Of a stretch of 64,000 nt of DNA, positions 1,205 to 56,956 are shown piece by piece. A program made the translations under genes and the position numbers. This DNA comes from SAR116 cluster bacterium AG-426-I14. Its GTDB lineage: Bacteria > Pseudomonadota > Alphaproteobacteria > Puniceispirillales > Marisalimonadaceae. The stretch is taken from the NCBI GenBank assembly GCA_003210055.1, contig QCNS01000009.1, positions 1 to 64,000 on the forward strand. The letters run 5' to 3'. Positions within the stretch are counted from its first letter, which is position 1. Each line of letters opens with the position of its first letter. A model generated the notes under the pieces. The model did not search any database and was not told where the DNA came from. It saw only the letters and a program-made list of their open reading frames with translations.

Positions 1205-2752
1205 ATGAGTTGGAAGAAAGAATTAGAGGAAAAAGTTAAAAGAGAAAAATTATCTGAGAAGCTCGGAGGTTCTGAGAGAGTCAAAAGACAACATGATTCT
1301 GGTCGATATACAGTTCGAGAAAGAATTCATCTTTTAACTGATAAAAACTCATTTCAGGAAGTAGGTAAAATAGCTGGCAAAGCTATATATGATGATAATA
1401 ATGATTTAATTGATTTTAAGGGTTCAAACTTTATCTTTGGCAAAGCTAAAATTGATGGAAGAACAATTATAGTGGGAGGAGATGATTTTACTCTAAGAGG
1501 TGGTTCAGCAGACGCTTCAATAAAAGAAAAACATCACAAATGCGAAGAGATGGCATTATCTCTCAAACTACCTTTAATCAGGATAGTAGAGGGGTCTGGG
1601 GGAGGTGGTTCTGTAAAAACCATTGAAACAACTGGAAGGGCGAATGTACCAGAGGTCGAGGGTTGGGATTTAGTTGTTAAGAGTATGGGAACTATACCAC
1701 GGGTGGCTTTAGGGCTTGGTTCTGTAGCAGGTTTAGGCGCGGCTCATTTAGCATCTTCTCATTATTCTGTAATGGTAAAAGATAAATCAGCTATGTTTGT
1801 TGCGGGTCCACCTGTAGTAGCTCAAATTGGTCAAAATTTAACAAAAAATGAATTAGGTGGTTATAAAATACAATTAAAGTCTGGTGCTGTAGATGATGCT
1901 GTGGATACTGAAGAGGAGGCTTTTGAAGCTGCAAAAAAATTTTTGTCATATTTACCAAATTCTATTAATGAATTAACTGAACAAATAAAAACAGAAGACA
2001 ATTCCAATAGATCAGCAGAGTGGTTAATTGAGGCTATACCAAAGGATATTAAATCAGTTTATAAAATAAGACCAATTATAGAAGAGCTTGTTGATAAAGG
2101 AAGTTTTTTTGAAATAAGTAAGGAATTTGGTAAATCAGTTGTAACTGGTTTTTGCAGGTTAAATGGATGGTCAATTGCTCTAATGGCAAGTGATCCATAT
2201 TCTTATGGAGGTTGTTGGACTGCCGAAACATGCAAAAAGGTTCAAAAATTTGTTGATTTAGCTGAAACTTTTCATCTCCCGATAATTTATTTAGTTGATT
2301 GTCCAGGTTTTCAAGTTGGCTTAGATGCAGAAAAAAAAGGCACAATTAAAGAAGGTGTTAGAGCAATGTCAGCGATTTGGCAAACAAAAACGCCATGGAT
2401 GTCTATTATCATTAGAAATTGTTTTGGAGTTGCAGGAGCGGCTCATAAAAGAGGTAGTAGTTTCATAACAAGATATGCTTGGCCTTCAGCTCGCTGGGGT
2501 TCTCTACCACTTGAAGGGGGAATTGAAGCTGCATATAGAAAAGATATAGAAAATTCTTCTAATCCAAAGAAAGAATTAGAAAAAATAAATATCAGATTAA
2601 ATAAATTGAGATCTCCTTTAAGAACTGCAGAATCTTTTTGGATAGAGGAAATAATTGATCCACGAAATACTCGAGAACTTATGTGTGAATTTGCTGATTT
2701 AAGTGCACCTTTAAGAACCACCGGATTAACACACAGAACTATGAGACCATAG
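1205..2752 (+). CDS. Acyl-CoA carboxylase carboxyltransferase (beta) subunit
   Basis: Carboxyltransferase half of a biotin-dependent acyl-CoA carboxylase (propionyl-/methylcrotonyl-CoA carboxylase type): it moves CO2 from carboxybiotin to an acyl-CoA. The 515 residues match the usual beta-subunit length. The N-terminal half has the crotonase-like acyl-CoA site (GDDFTLRGGSADASIKEKH, then EGSGGGGS) and the C-terminal half has VDCPGFQVGLDAEKKG and RNCFGVAGAAH, matching the second crotonase fold that binds biotin. The gene sits between a CoA-transferase and a tiny biotin carrier gene, so all three probably act together. No biotin carboxylase (alpha) subunit is in the window; it may lie upstream or be supplied from elsewhere. 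Acyl substrate not determinable. Confidence 0.9.
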   Translation: MSWKKELEEKVKREKLSEKLGGSERVKRQHDSGRYTVRERIHLLTDKNSFQEVGKIAGKAIYDDNNDLIDFKGSNFIFGKAKIDGRTIIVGGDDFTLRGGSADASIKEKHHKCEEMALSLKLPLIRIVEGSGGGGSVKTIETTGRANVPEVEGWDLVVKSMGTIPRVALGLGSVAGLGAAHLASSHYSVMVKDKSAMFVAGPPVVAQIGQNLTKNELGGYKIQLKSGAVDDAVDTEEEAFEAAKKFLSYLPNSINELTEQIKTEDNSNRSAEWLIEAIPKDIKSVYKIRPIIEELVDKGSFFEISKEFGKSVVTGFCRLNGWSIALMASDPYSYGGCWTAETCKKVQKFVDLAETFHLPIIYLVDCPGFQVGLDAEKKGTIKEGVRAMSAIWQTKTPWMSIIIRNCFGVAGAAHKRGSSFITRYAWPSARWGSLPLEGGIEAAYRKDIENSSNPKKELEKINIRLNKLRSPLRTAESFWIEEIIDPRNTRELMCEFADLSAPLRTTGLTHRTMRP

Positions 2753-53763: not shown

Positions 53764-54324
53764 ATGACTGAAAATTTTGATGAAAATTTAATTAAGCAAA
53801 GAATGGATAAAACACTCATATCTTTTCAAAATGATTTAAATACTCTTAGAGCAGGAAGGGCAACAATTAATATGTTGGATACTGTATTAGTTGAAGCTTA
53901 TGGTTCAAAAGTTCCAATTAATCAATTAGGAAATATTAATGTACCTGAACCAAGACTTTTAGTAATTTCAGTTTGGGATTCCTCTAATGTTGAACAGGTT
54001 GAAAAATCTATAAGAGAGAGTAATCTGGGGTTAAACCCAATGATTGAAGGCAACTTGATTAGATTACCCATTCCACCTCTTTCTGAGGAAAGAAGAATAG
54101 AACTTTCAAAGGTAGCTGGAAAATATGCAGAAAATACAAGAGTATCTCTACGAAATATAAGAAGAGATATAATTGAAGATATTAGAAAAAAAGAAAAAAA
54201 CAAAGAGATGTCTGCTGATGAAAAACATAAAAGTGAAGAAATTGTTCAATCAATAACTAATGAGTATGTAAACAATGTAGATAAAATTTTATCAAATAAA
54301 GAAAAAGAAATACTTGAAGTATAA
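53764..54324 (+). CDS. frr: Ribosome recycling factor
   Basis: Splits post-termination ribosomes with EF-G. The 186 residues show RMDKTLISFQNDLNTLRAGR, VPINQLGNINVPEPRLLVI, GLNPMIEGNLIRLPIPPL and the basic RVSLRNIRRD helix. AGGAAAAG directly precedes the ATG. Followed after 4 bases by uppS. Confidence 0.96.
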   Translation: MTENFDENLIKQRMDKTLISFQNDLNTLRAGRATINMLDTVLVEAYGSKVPINQLGNINVPEPRLLVISVWDSSNVEQVEKSIRESNLGLNPMIEGNLIRLPIPPLSEERRIELSKVAGKYAENTRVSLRNIRRDIIEDIRKKEKNKEMSADEKHKSEEIVQSITNEYVNNVDKILSNKEKEILEV

Positions 54325-54328
54325 TAAA

Positions 54329-55015
54329 ATGTCTCCAAAACATGTAGCAATAATTATGGATGGTAATAGAAGATGGGCAAAAACTCATAAACTGACTTTA
54401 TCAGAGGGGTATAAAAAGGGCGTAGAAAATTTATATAAAACTGTTGAAAATTTTATTGAATTAAAAATAAAGTTTTTAACGGTGTTTGGATTTTCAACTG
54501 AAAATTGGAATAGATCAACTGTAGAAATTAATAAATTAATGATATTATTTGGTAATTTTTTAGATGAATCTATTGAAAAAATAAAAGGTAAAAATGTAAA
54601 AATTCGTTTTATTGGAGATCTTTCAAAGTTTAATAAAAATATTCAAGAAAAGATAAACAGATTGTCTTCAATGTCAGAAAACAATATTGGCTTAACATTA
54701 ACGTTAGCAGTAAATTATGGAGGTAGGTCTGATATTGTAAATGCAGTAAATAAGTTTATTAATGATACAAATAATAATAAAATTGATGAGATAAAATTTA
54801 GCAAATACATAATGAATTCTGAAATACCTAATCCTGATCTATTAATTAGAACGGGTGCAGAAAAAAGATTGTCAAATTTTTTGTTGTGGGACTTGGCGTA
54901 TACTGAATTATTATTTTTAAATGAAATGTGGCCAGAATTTGATATGAAACTTTTAAAATATTCAATTAATGAGTTTAAAAAAAGAATAAGAAATTATGGT
55001 GGAACTTATGTTTAG
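54329..55015 (+). CDS. uppS: Undecaprenyl diphosphate synthase
   Basis: Cis-prenyltransferase that makes the C55 lipid carrier for peptidoglycan and O-antigen. Conserved: HVAIIMDGNRRWAKT with the catalytic Asp, TVFGFSTENW, LAVNYGGRSDI and LIRTGAEKRLSNFLLWDLAY. The ATG at 54329 is chosen over an in-frame TTG at 54314 inside frr. Overlaps the start of cdsA by 8 bases. Confidence 0.95.
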   Translation: MSPKHVAIIMDGNRRWAKTHKLTLSEGYKKGVENLYKTVENFIELKIKFLTVFGFSTENWNRSTVEINKLMILFGNFLDESIEKIKGKNVKIRFIGDLSKFNKNIQEKINRLSSMSENNIGLTLTLAVNYGGRSDIVNAVNKFINDTNNNKIDEIKFSKYIMNSEIPNPDLLIRTGAEKRLSNFLLWDLAYTELLFLNEMWPEFDMKLLKYSINEFKKRIRNYGGTYV

Positions 55016-55795
55016 AACGCCCAACAAAGAATTTTTTTTAAGGTTGTTTTCATCAATTTTCTTAATTTCTTTTCTTATTTTGATATCAATTATTGGTAAT
55101 GAAGCATATAAAATTTGTACTATTTTATTGTTTTATTTTCTATTCAGTGAATTGGAGATGCTGATAAAAAAAAAAAGATTTTTACTTTTTTTACAACATT
55201 TTTAACGGTTTTTTATTATTTTTTAATCCTTCAAAGTAATAATTATTTATTTTTTGAACTCTCTTTGGTATTTCATTTTGTACTTTGTGTTCTGGCAGGT
55301 TTGTATTTTTTTGATTTAAAAAATCTAGTTTTTTCTACTTTGTCTATTTTGATTATTAATTTAATTTTTTGTTTATTCTATTTGTTAACAATTTTTGATA
55401 ATATCAATTTTATTTTATTAATTATTATGTTAATCACTTTTCATGATATTTCGGCTTATTTAGGAGGAAAAACGTTTGGTAAATTAAAAATATATCCAAA
55501 TATTAGTCCAAATAAAACATTAGAAGGAACAATAATTGGAGTAATTTCATCTATTCCTCTAACATATTTTTATTCAACCTATTTCAATTTAGAAACAATA
55601 AATTATCTGATATTTGGAATTATATTATCTTTTTTATCATCATCAGGTGATTTACTCGTCTCATATTTTAAAAGACGGATAAATGTAAAAGATACAGGTT
55701 CTCTTATACCTGGTCATGGTGGTTTTCTAGACAGATTTGATGGTTATATTTTTTGTATACCAATATCCTTATTATTTATAAAAATATTTAATTAA
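55008..55795 (+). CDS. cdsA: Phosphatidate cytidylyltransferase, reading frame interrupted at an 11-A tract
   Basis: Makes CDP-diacylglycerol for phospholipid synthesis. The first segment (from ATG 55008, or 54996) runs to a stop at 55203-55205. The frame one base back continues from the A tract at 55166-55176 without a stop to 55795. Joining them by one added A, or a -1 frameshift, gives about 262 residues with the CdsA signature YFKRRINVKDTGSLIPGHGG and DRFDG and repeated hydrophobic helices. The N-terminal part supplies the first two helices expected of the family. Because cdsA is normally essential, a sequencing deletion, transcriptional slippage or programmed frameshift is more likely than a dead gene. 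The TTG at 55265 is not a convincing separate start. Confidence 0.85.
55166..55176 (+). other. A11 tract at the cdsA frame change
   Basis: Eleven consecutive A in the frame-0 context ATA AAA AAA AAA AGA. Addition of one A to the mRNA, or a -1 ribosomal slip on A-AAA-AAA, moves reading into the frame that completes CdsA. Two other tracts of similar length (10663-10673 and 25170-25181) lie inside open frames. Confidence 0.85.
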
Positions 55796-55801
55796 TTTAA
55801 A

Positions 55802-56956
55802 ATGAAAAAGTTAAAAAAAATTATTTTATTAGGGGCAACAGGTTCTATTGGTAAGACTACATTAGAACTTTTAAGGCTTCAGAAAGACAAATTTAAATTA
55901 ATTGGAGTTTCAGCAAACACAAATGTAAAAAAATTAAAAACAATTGTTGATGAATTTAATGTTAAATATATTGCAATTAGTGATTTAATAGCATCAAAAA
56001 CAAATGTTTTTGACACTAACCTGCTGGTTGGAGAAAAAGGATTAAATGAATTAGCTTCAATCAAATGTGATATCTTAGTCTCAGGTATATCAGGAGCTGC
56101 AGGATTGTTACCTGCAATAACAGCTTTAAAATCAGGAAATGATATAGCAATAGCCAACAAAGAACCTCTTGTTATTGCCGGTGATTTTTTTACAAAAGAA
56201 ACAAATATTAATAATACTAAAATTCTCCCAGTTGATTCTGAACATAACTCAATCTTTCAATGCTTTGATGAAAAAAATAGAGATAAAATTAGTAATATAA
56301 CTCTAACTGCTTCGGGAGGACCATTCCTTAATTTAAATAAAAAGTATTTTAATAAAATTAAGCCCAGTGATGCAATTAAGCATCCTGTTTGGAATATGGG
56401 AAAAAAAATTTCAGTAGATAGTGCCACATTGATTAACAAAGCTCTAGAGATTATAGAGGCAGGTAATTTATTTAATCTTAAATTTAATCAAATAGATGTC
56501 TTAATTCATCCACAATCTATAATTCATGGAATGGTTCATTATATGGATGGCTCTGTTCTCGCAAATTTATCTTATCCAAATATGATAAGTCCATTGAGTT
56601 TAGCTTTAAGTCATCCAGAGAGATTAGACTTAGGATTAAAAAAACTAGATCTGTCAAAAATAGGTGAATTATCATTCAAAAAACCTGATTTAGAAAAATT
56701 TCCAGGTTTAAAGCTTGGCTGGGAAATTTTACAGCAACCAAAGCCTTACTCAATAATAATGAATGCTGCAAATGAAATAGCAGTTGAATTATTTTTAAAA
56801 AATGCAATAAGTTTTAATCAAATTGTAGATTTAATTAATGATGCTCTTCAAAGATTTAATTTTGATATACCAAGAAGCTTAGAGGATGTTATTGATATAG
56901 ATAAAAGAACACGGATTCTAATTAAAGAAAGTTACACAGGAGTTAAAATTGTTTGA
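55802..56956 (+). CDS. dxr: 1-deoxy-D-xylulose 5-phosphate reductoisomerase
   Basis: Second enzyme of the MEP isoprenoid pathway. Of 384 residues, the NADPH motif is LGATGSIGKTTLELL; ANKEPLVIAG, LPVDSEHNSIFQCF, LTASGGPF, HPVWNMGKKISVDSATLINK and EVIEAGNLF-like sequence follow, with the metal and substrate residues intact. Preceded by cdsA (6 bases) and overlapping rseP by 8 bases. Confidence 0.96.
   Translation: MKKLKKIILLGATGSIGKTTLELLRLQKDKFKLIGVSANTNVKKLKTIVDEFNVKYIAISDLIASKTNVFDTNLLVGEKGLNELASIKCDILVSGISGAAGLLPAITALKSGNDIAIANKEPLVIAGDFFTKETNINNTKILPVDSEHNSIFQCFDEKNRDKISNITLTASGGPFLNLNKKYFNKIKPSDAIKHPVWNMGKKISVDSATLINKALEIIEAGNLFNLKFNQIDVLIHPQSIIHGMVHYMDGSVLANLSYPNMISPLSLALSHPERLDLGLKKLDLSKIGELSFKKPDLEKFPGLKLGWEILQQPKPYSIIMNAANEIAVELFLKNAISFNQIVDLINDALQRFNFDIPRSLEDVIDIDKRTRILIKESYTGVKIV

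Follow-up and report, generated by a model that had tools for sequence, protein, structure and literature searches.

A change of reading frame at a run of eleven As in cdsA of a SAR116 cluster bacterium draft genome: length error or slippage-rescued allele

Described poly(A) frameshifts and the cdsA locus

Poly(A)-frameshifted genes of the kind known from Blochmannia and Buchnera were reportedly described by Tamas et al. in 2008. In Blochmannia vafer eight genes are retained in spite of such breaks, dnaX, dnaG and pth among them (PMC3017870). Single-A insertions make up most slips in the transcription of A/T runs, and their frequency grows exponentially as the runs lengthen, up to 11 nt in Buchnera (PMC5574713). 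The tssM1 gene of Citrobacter rodentium has an A11 run with a stop codon 28 nt downstream, and its +1 frameshifting reaches about 20%, the mRNAs carrying 10-15 As (PMC4256274); slippage in this gene was demonstrated by cDNA mass spectrometry, and both of its products are needed.

The cdsA gene described here lies in the window (the whole stretch of 64,000 nucleotides that was analysed, from a draft genome of the SAR116 cluster bacterium AG-426-I14). It resembles tssM1 (PMC4256274) in its A11 run, in the stop that follows 26-28 nt after it in both genes, in the short product expected otherwise, and in that one additional A restores a full-length membrane protein. Unlike tssM1, cdsA is known from sequence alone, its relatives lack the tract and the length of the tract is taken from the draft assembly alone. 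Like the frameshifted genes known from Blochmannia and Buchnera (PMC3017870), it lies in an AT-rich genome and is an otherwise intact core gene with a single indel in a long A/T run; those genes, however, belong to host-restricted endosymbionts and their breaks are partly shared between species, whereas the cdsA break is private to one draft. The locus is also similar to the homopolymer errors of draft assemblies, with a one-base disagreement in a long A-run, no relative supporting it and several similar cases in the same draft, although the frame is kept at the majority of the long runs here.

The cdsA gene and its frame break

The window contains the gene cluster rpsB-tsf-pyrH-frr-uppS-cdsA-dxr-rseP-bamA, a common one, in which the reading frames were named from their evident sequence and uppS and dxr were confirmed by NCBIfam (Table 1). 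The enzyme CdsA takes part in phospholipid synthesis and is normally essential. The gene belongs to the Pfam family CTP_transf_1 (PF01148) by a profile match over the whole domain, which spans both frames (profile positions 2-264, 155.8 bits); the 3' part alone, with residues from 55265 on, scores 151.3 bits (5.8e-44) against a cut-off of 24. The elements of the C-terminal signature (S, K-R, K-D, P-G-H-G-G and D-R-D) are all present, and the residues kept in it are S133, K136, R137, K142, D143, G145, P149, G150, H151, G152, G153, D156, R157 and D159, numbered by the columns of alignment A1, in which invariance was judged across 14 sequences (13 same-family relatives and the cdsA of this genome). 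By its profile match and the retention of all invariant residues, cdsA is healthy apart from its frame break. It provides the only PF01148 match in this draft (1.88 Mb in 65 contigs, 78% complete), and no second cdsA copy was found in the draft at this level of completeness.

Table 1. Features at and around the cdsA frame break (positions in the window).
Feature	Position	Strand	Details
uppS (polyprenyl diphosphate synthase), intact	54314..55015	+	TIGR00055, 238 bits; overlaps the cdsA start by 8 nt
cdsA 5' part, upstream frame	55008..55205	+	65 aa; ATG 55008 to TAA 55203-55205
cdsA 3' part, downstream frame	55151..55795	+	open 55151-55792; stop 55793-55795
GGAG, Shine-Dalgarno-like	55154..55157	+	8-11 nt before the candidate A_AAA_AAA sites
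A11 run, probable place of the frame break	55166..55176	+	in a variable lysine-rich loop; followed by G
CDP-diglyceride synthase signature SYFKRRINVKDTGSLIPGHGGFLDRFD, intact	55661..55741	+	invariant columns of alignment A1 kept
dxr (DXP reductoisomerase), intact	55802..56956	+	TIGR00243, 392 bits; begins 6 nt after cdsA

No single continuous reading frame runs through cdsA. The upstream frame begins at an ATG that overlaps the uppS stop (the next ATG further upstream, at 54996, would yield 69 aa), and, with the frames joined, this part aligns to the N-terminal helices of 21 CdsA proteins of the same family. Stops bound the downstream frame at 55148 and 55793, and the 642 nt between them contain no other. 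Since the two open frames overlap only over the 52 nt from 55151 to 55202, the frame shift must fall within this interval, where the A11 run is the sole long homopolymer; a T7 (55186-55192) comes after it. Addition of one A in silico gives a protein of 262 residues that aligns with its relatives over the whole length, so that cdsA has what is looked for in a slippage gene, a run of at least nine A or T whose change in length mends the frame; removal of two As likewise rejoins the frames. The contig that carries the site is 87 kb long, and the site lies midway along it. The earlier note had described two halves in different frames that meet at these eleven As, a full-length CdsA with intact signature upon insertion of one A, a downstream frame free of stops after the tract and a 65-residue upstream frame ending at 55205, and our coordinates and alignments agree with it on each of these points.

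Long A-runs, other breaks and cdsA in relatives

This genome has a GC content of 29.5%, and 31 A/T runs of at least 11 nt were counted in the 1.57 of 1.88 Mb that was read as a control; an A11 run by itself is thus unremarkable here. With cdsA excluded, about 20 A/T runs of at least 11 nt lie in clearly coding frames, all of them in one continuous frame, and the frame is also kept at 73 of 74-77 runs of 10; these counts are approximate, since the coding score is weak over T-rich membrane genes, for which reason the automatic scan also omitted cdsA as a break. The assembly is therefore not generally wrong at homopolymers. Relative to synonymous shuffles within genes, the ratio of observed to expected runs is 0.99 for A9, 0.65 for A10 and 0.41 for A11 and longer, and 0.26 for T10 and zero for T11 and longer, a measure that is somewhat biased by the use of long intact frames only. 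Runs of 10 or more are selected against in this genome. Such avoidance fits slippage in replication or in transcription without separating them, a point also made by Baranov et al. (PMC1088944).

A first automatic scan for changes of frame returned mostly ordinary gene junctions with A-rich ribosome sites, and breaks were therefore judged by eye, together with Pfam searches on the separate pieces. Four other genes of the draft (G000) were found to change frame at A-runs in this way. In parB the frame changes at an A9 (contig C12:48489-48497, minus strand, locus L270), with the dimerisation domain following in another frame; of the 46 family relatives in which parB has a match, nearly all have a longer and unbroken frame, and the parB of the same-genus draft G002 (82% identical) has no such A-run. 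A gene of the XdhC family, near a contig end, has two A9 breaks about 300 nt apart (C6:1166-1174 and 1460-1468, minus strand), and all three of its pieces match XdhC domains. The C-terminal tail of nuoE is lost at an A9 (C14:25268-25276), the frame being longer in the same-genus draft G001, and the frame of an aroE-like gene changes at an A10 (C5:71445-71454), its counterpart in a same-genus genome (96% identical protein) having an open frame of 296 aa. A homology scan of the same draft for breaks gave four hits; a single long protein matching adjacent genes accounts for two of them, and a third is doubtful. A frameshift in a cinA-like (molybdopterin-binding) gene lies at a T6 (C20, near 20934), a run on which strong slippage would not be expected because it is so short. 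The 1.2 Mb read of G003, a relative whose genome is 99% complete, includes tsaE, a usually essential gene, frameshifted at an A10 that is one A short (C2, near 119475, minus strand), and a protein of about 460 aa that is broken at an A7. Most of the A9-A10 breaks in the draft itself have one A too many, while cdsA and the tsaE of G003 have one too few. Breaks at long A-runs thus appear to be few and, as far as tested, private, and their presence at A9-A10 runs of other genes indicates that the event is not special to cdsA.

A cdsA match was present in 83 of the 120 related genomes searched, nearly always as a single match, the few double entries representing split contigs or an N-filled gene. 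Each of the 21 same-family cdsA genes that were aligned is in frame. The position of the A11 run corresponds in them to a variable loop, often lysine-rich, in which one relative (L007) has an A9 and three have an A8, all in frame; neither an A11 nor an offset frame occurs at this place in any of the 21. Tract and offset frame are thus not conserved, and we rejected a conserved programmed recoding of cdsA; the absence of A11 from in-frame relatives also argues against regulated or programmed slippage in this family. As the same-genus drafts G001 and G002 lack the uppS-cdsA-dxr segment, the closest cdsA available for comparison has about 40% protein identity. Scans of collections of genome contigs and of viral contigs with the 3' part of the gene itself gave no close cdsA copies, and a profile scan found distant CdsA proteins only. 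As far as tested, the break is private to this draft, and the in-frame genes of relatives do not separate a length error from a recent real deletion. The earlier note had proposed slippage, with a sequencing error as the alternative, and had suggested recounting the tract in related genomes: its sequence facts stand, its interpretation is supported in part, and the relatives, with an A9 at most, leave error and recent deletion undivided.

An apparent cdsA break in G020 has many Ns at that point and was left out of the count, and short cdsA matches in G003, G044, G059, G010 and others were not accepted as frameshifts, as contig ends cut these genes. Contigs end inside cdsA in about nine related drafts (at the end of G003:C14, G044:C20, G059:C10, G077:C44 and G010:C45, and at the start of G010:C22, G050:C12, G015:C54, G035:C14 and G065:C42), which seems often for one 0.8-kb gene and may be due to strain variation or to the low complexity of its first half.

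Origin of the break and what it would mean

A true break of cdsA that is not rescued should be lethal, and the choice is therefore between an error and a rescue. We give an even chance to a functional and ordinary cdsA whose A-run was recorded one base off, through a miscount or a minority variant. In most or all cells of the species the run would probably keep the frame, for example with twelve As, and the draft would show the homopolymer at a wrong length, through a miscount in sequencing or assembly or through a minority length variant taken as the consensus; we infer that the cdsA molecule in the cell is probably in frame. A length error is suggested by the essential nature of CdsA together with the single PF01148 match in the draft, by a gene that is otherwise undamaged and in frame in every same-family relative aligned, by the private breaks elsewhere in the draft (parB, the aroE-like gene, the nuoE tail and xdhC twice), and by the break of the cinA-like gene at a T6. 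It is also suggested by the excess A in most of the A9-A10 breaks, which the insertion of a single base by RNA polymerase would not mend (PMC5574713). The in-frame state of the other long runs (about 20 of at least 11 nt and 73 of 74-77 of 10) speaks against it, as do the position of the site half-way along its contig and the fact that such miscounts are unusual for well-covered short reads. Somewhat less probable, though close behind, is a real allele in which a hypermutable A-run has lately lost one base, the loss being tolerated through the A that slipping RNA polymerase adds at A11 in a fraction of transcripts; the cell would then be predicted to make full-length CdsA at a reduced level and a truncated product of 65 residues. 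Slippage rescue of cdsA is quantitatively plausible by analogy with tssM1, the closest case tested by experiment: the gene needs one more A, the commonest transcription slip, and its stop is at nearly the same distance from the A11 as in tssM1 (26 against 28 nt). Further points in its favour are that A10 (0.65-fold) and longer runs (0.41-fold) are rarer in genes than in shuffles while A9 runs (0.99-fold) are not, and that the normally essential tsaE of G003 is broken at an A10 that also needs +1. Slippage in replication alone, however, predicts the avoidance of long runs equally well, several breaks in the same draft are unlike those that +1 slippage mends, and the known cases are mostly from endosymbionts or accessory genes. 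The length error is thus somewhat favoured over a rescued A11 allele, by a small gap and on inferential grounds.

Two further explanations are far less probable. That cdsA is a true pseudogene, its role having been taken over by a gene somewhere in the sequence that is missing or was not read, is very unlikely: the draft is 78% complete and has one PF01148 match, which would leave room for such a gene, but the 3' frame shows no damage along its 642 nt and retains all invariant residues, and almost all relatives have a single cdsA match. It is extremely unlikely that the ribosome makes a programmed -1 frameshift on A_AAA_AAA, stimulated by a Shine-Dalgarno-like sequence upstream as it is in E. 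coli dnaX. The slip site named in the earlier note does exist, in that slippery heptamers lie in frame at 55166-55172 and 55169-55175, the -1 direction is the right one and a GGAG precedes them, which lends the idea weak support. This GGAG probably occurs by chance, a Shine-Dalgarno-like 4-mer being found within 20 nt upstream of 8 of the 86 sense A-runs of at least 10 in scored ORFs. Against frameshifting, there is no significant structure downstream of the A11 run (-5.3 kcal/mol, z -1.17), the cdsA heptamers lack the AAG that is favoured as second codon, and the arrangement is not conserved, since no relative has the tract or the frameshift. To our knowledge, there is no reason for regulating cdsA by frameshifting.

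A length error and a slip covered by slippage are both known phenomena, and a real A11 would be a further case of a known kind. It is unlikely, in our estimation, that this 1.9-Mb AT-rich bacterium, which is not known as an obligate endosymbiont, carries real and stable poly(A) frameshifts in cdsA, parB and nuoE (and its relative one in tsaE), with the dosage of an essential enzyme set by RNA polymerase slippage. If the A11 run is a length error, lone breaks at long A-runs in AT-rich drafts should not be taken for biology without the reads. If it is real, slippage-rescued frameshifts would reach beyond endosymbionts and accessory genes to an essential enzyme of lipid synthesis, and the case would warn against labelling such genes as pseudogenes.
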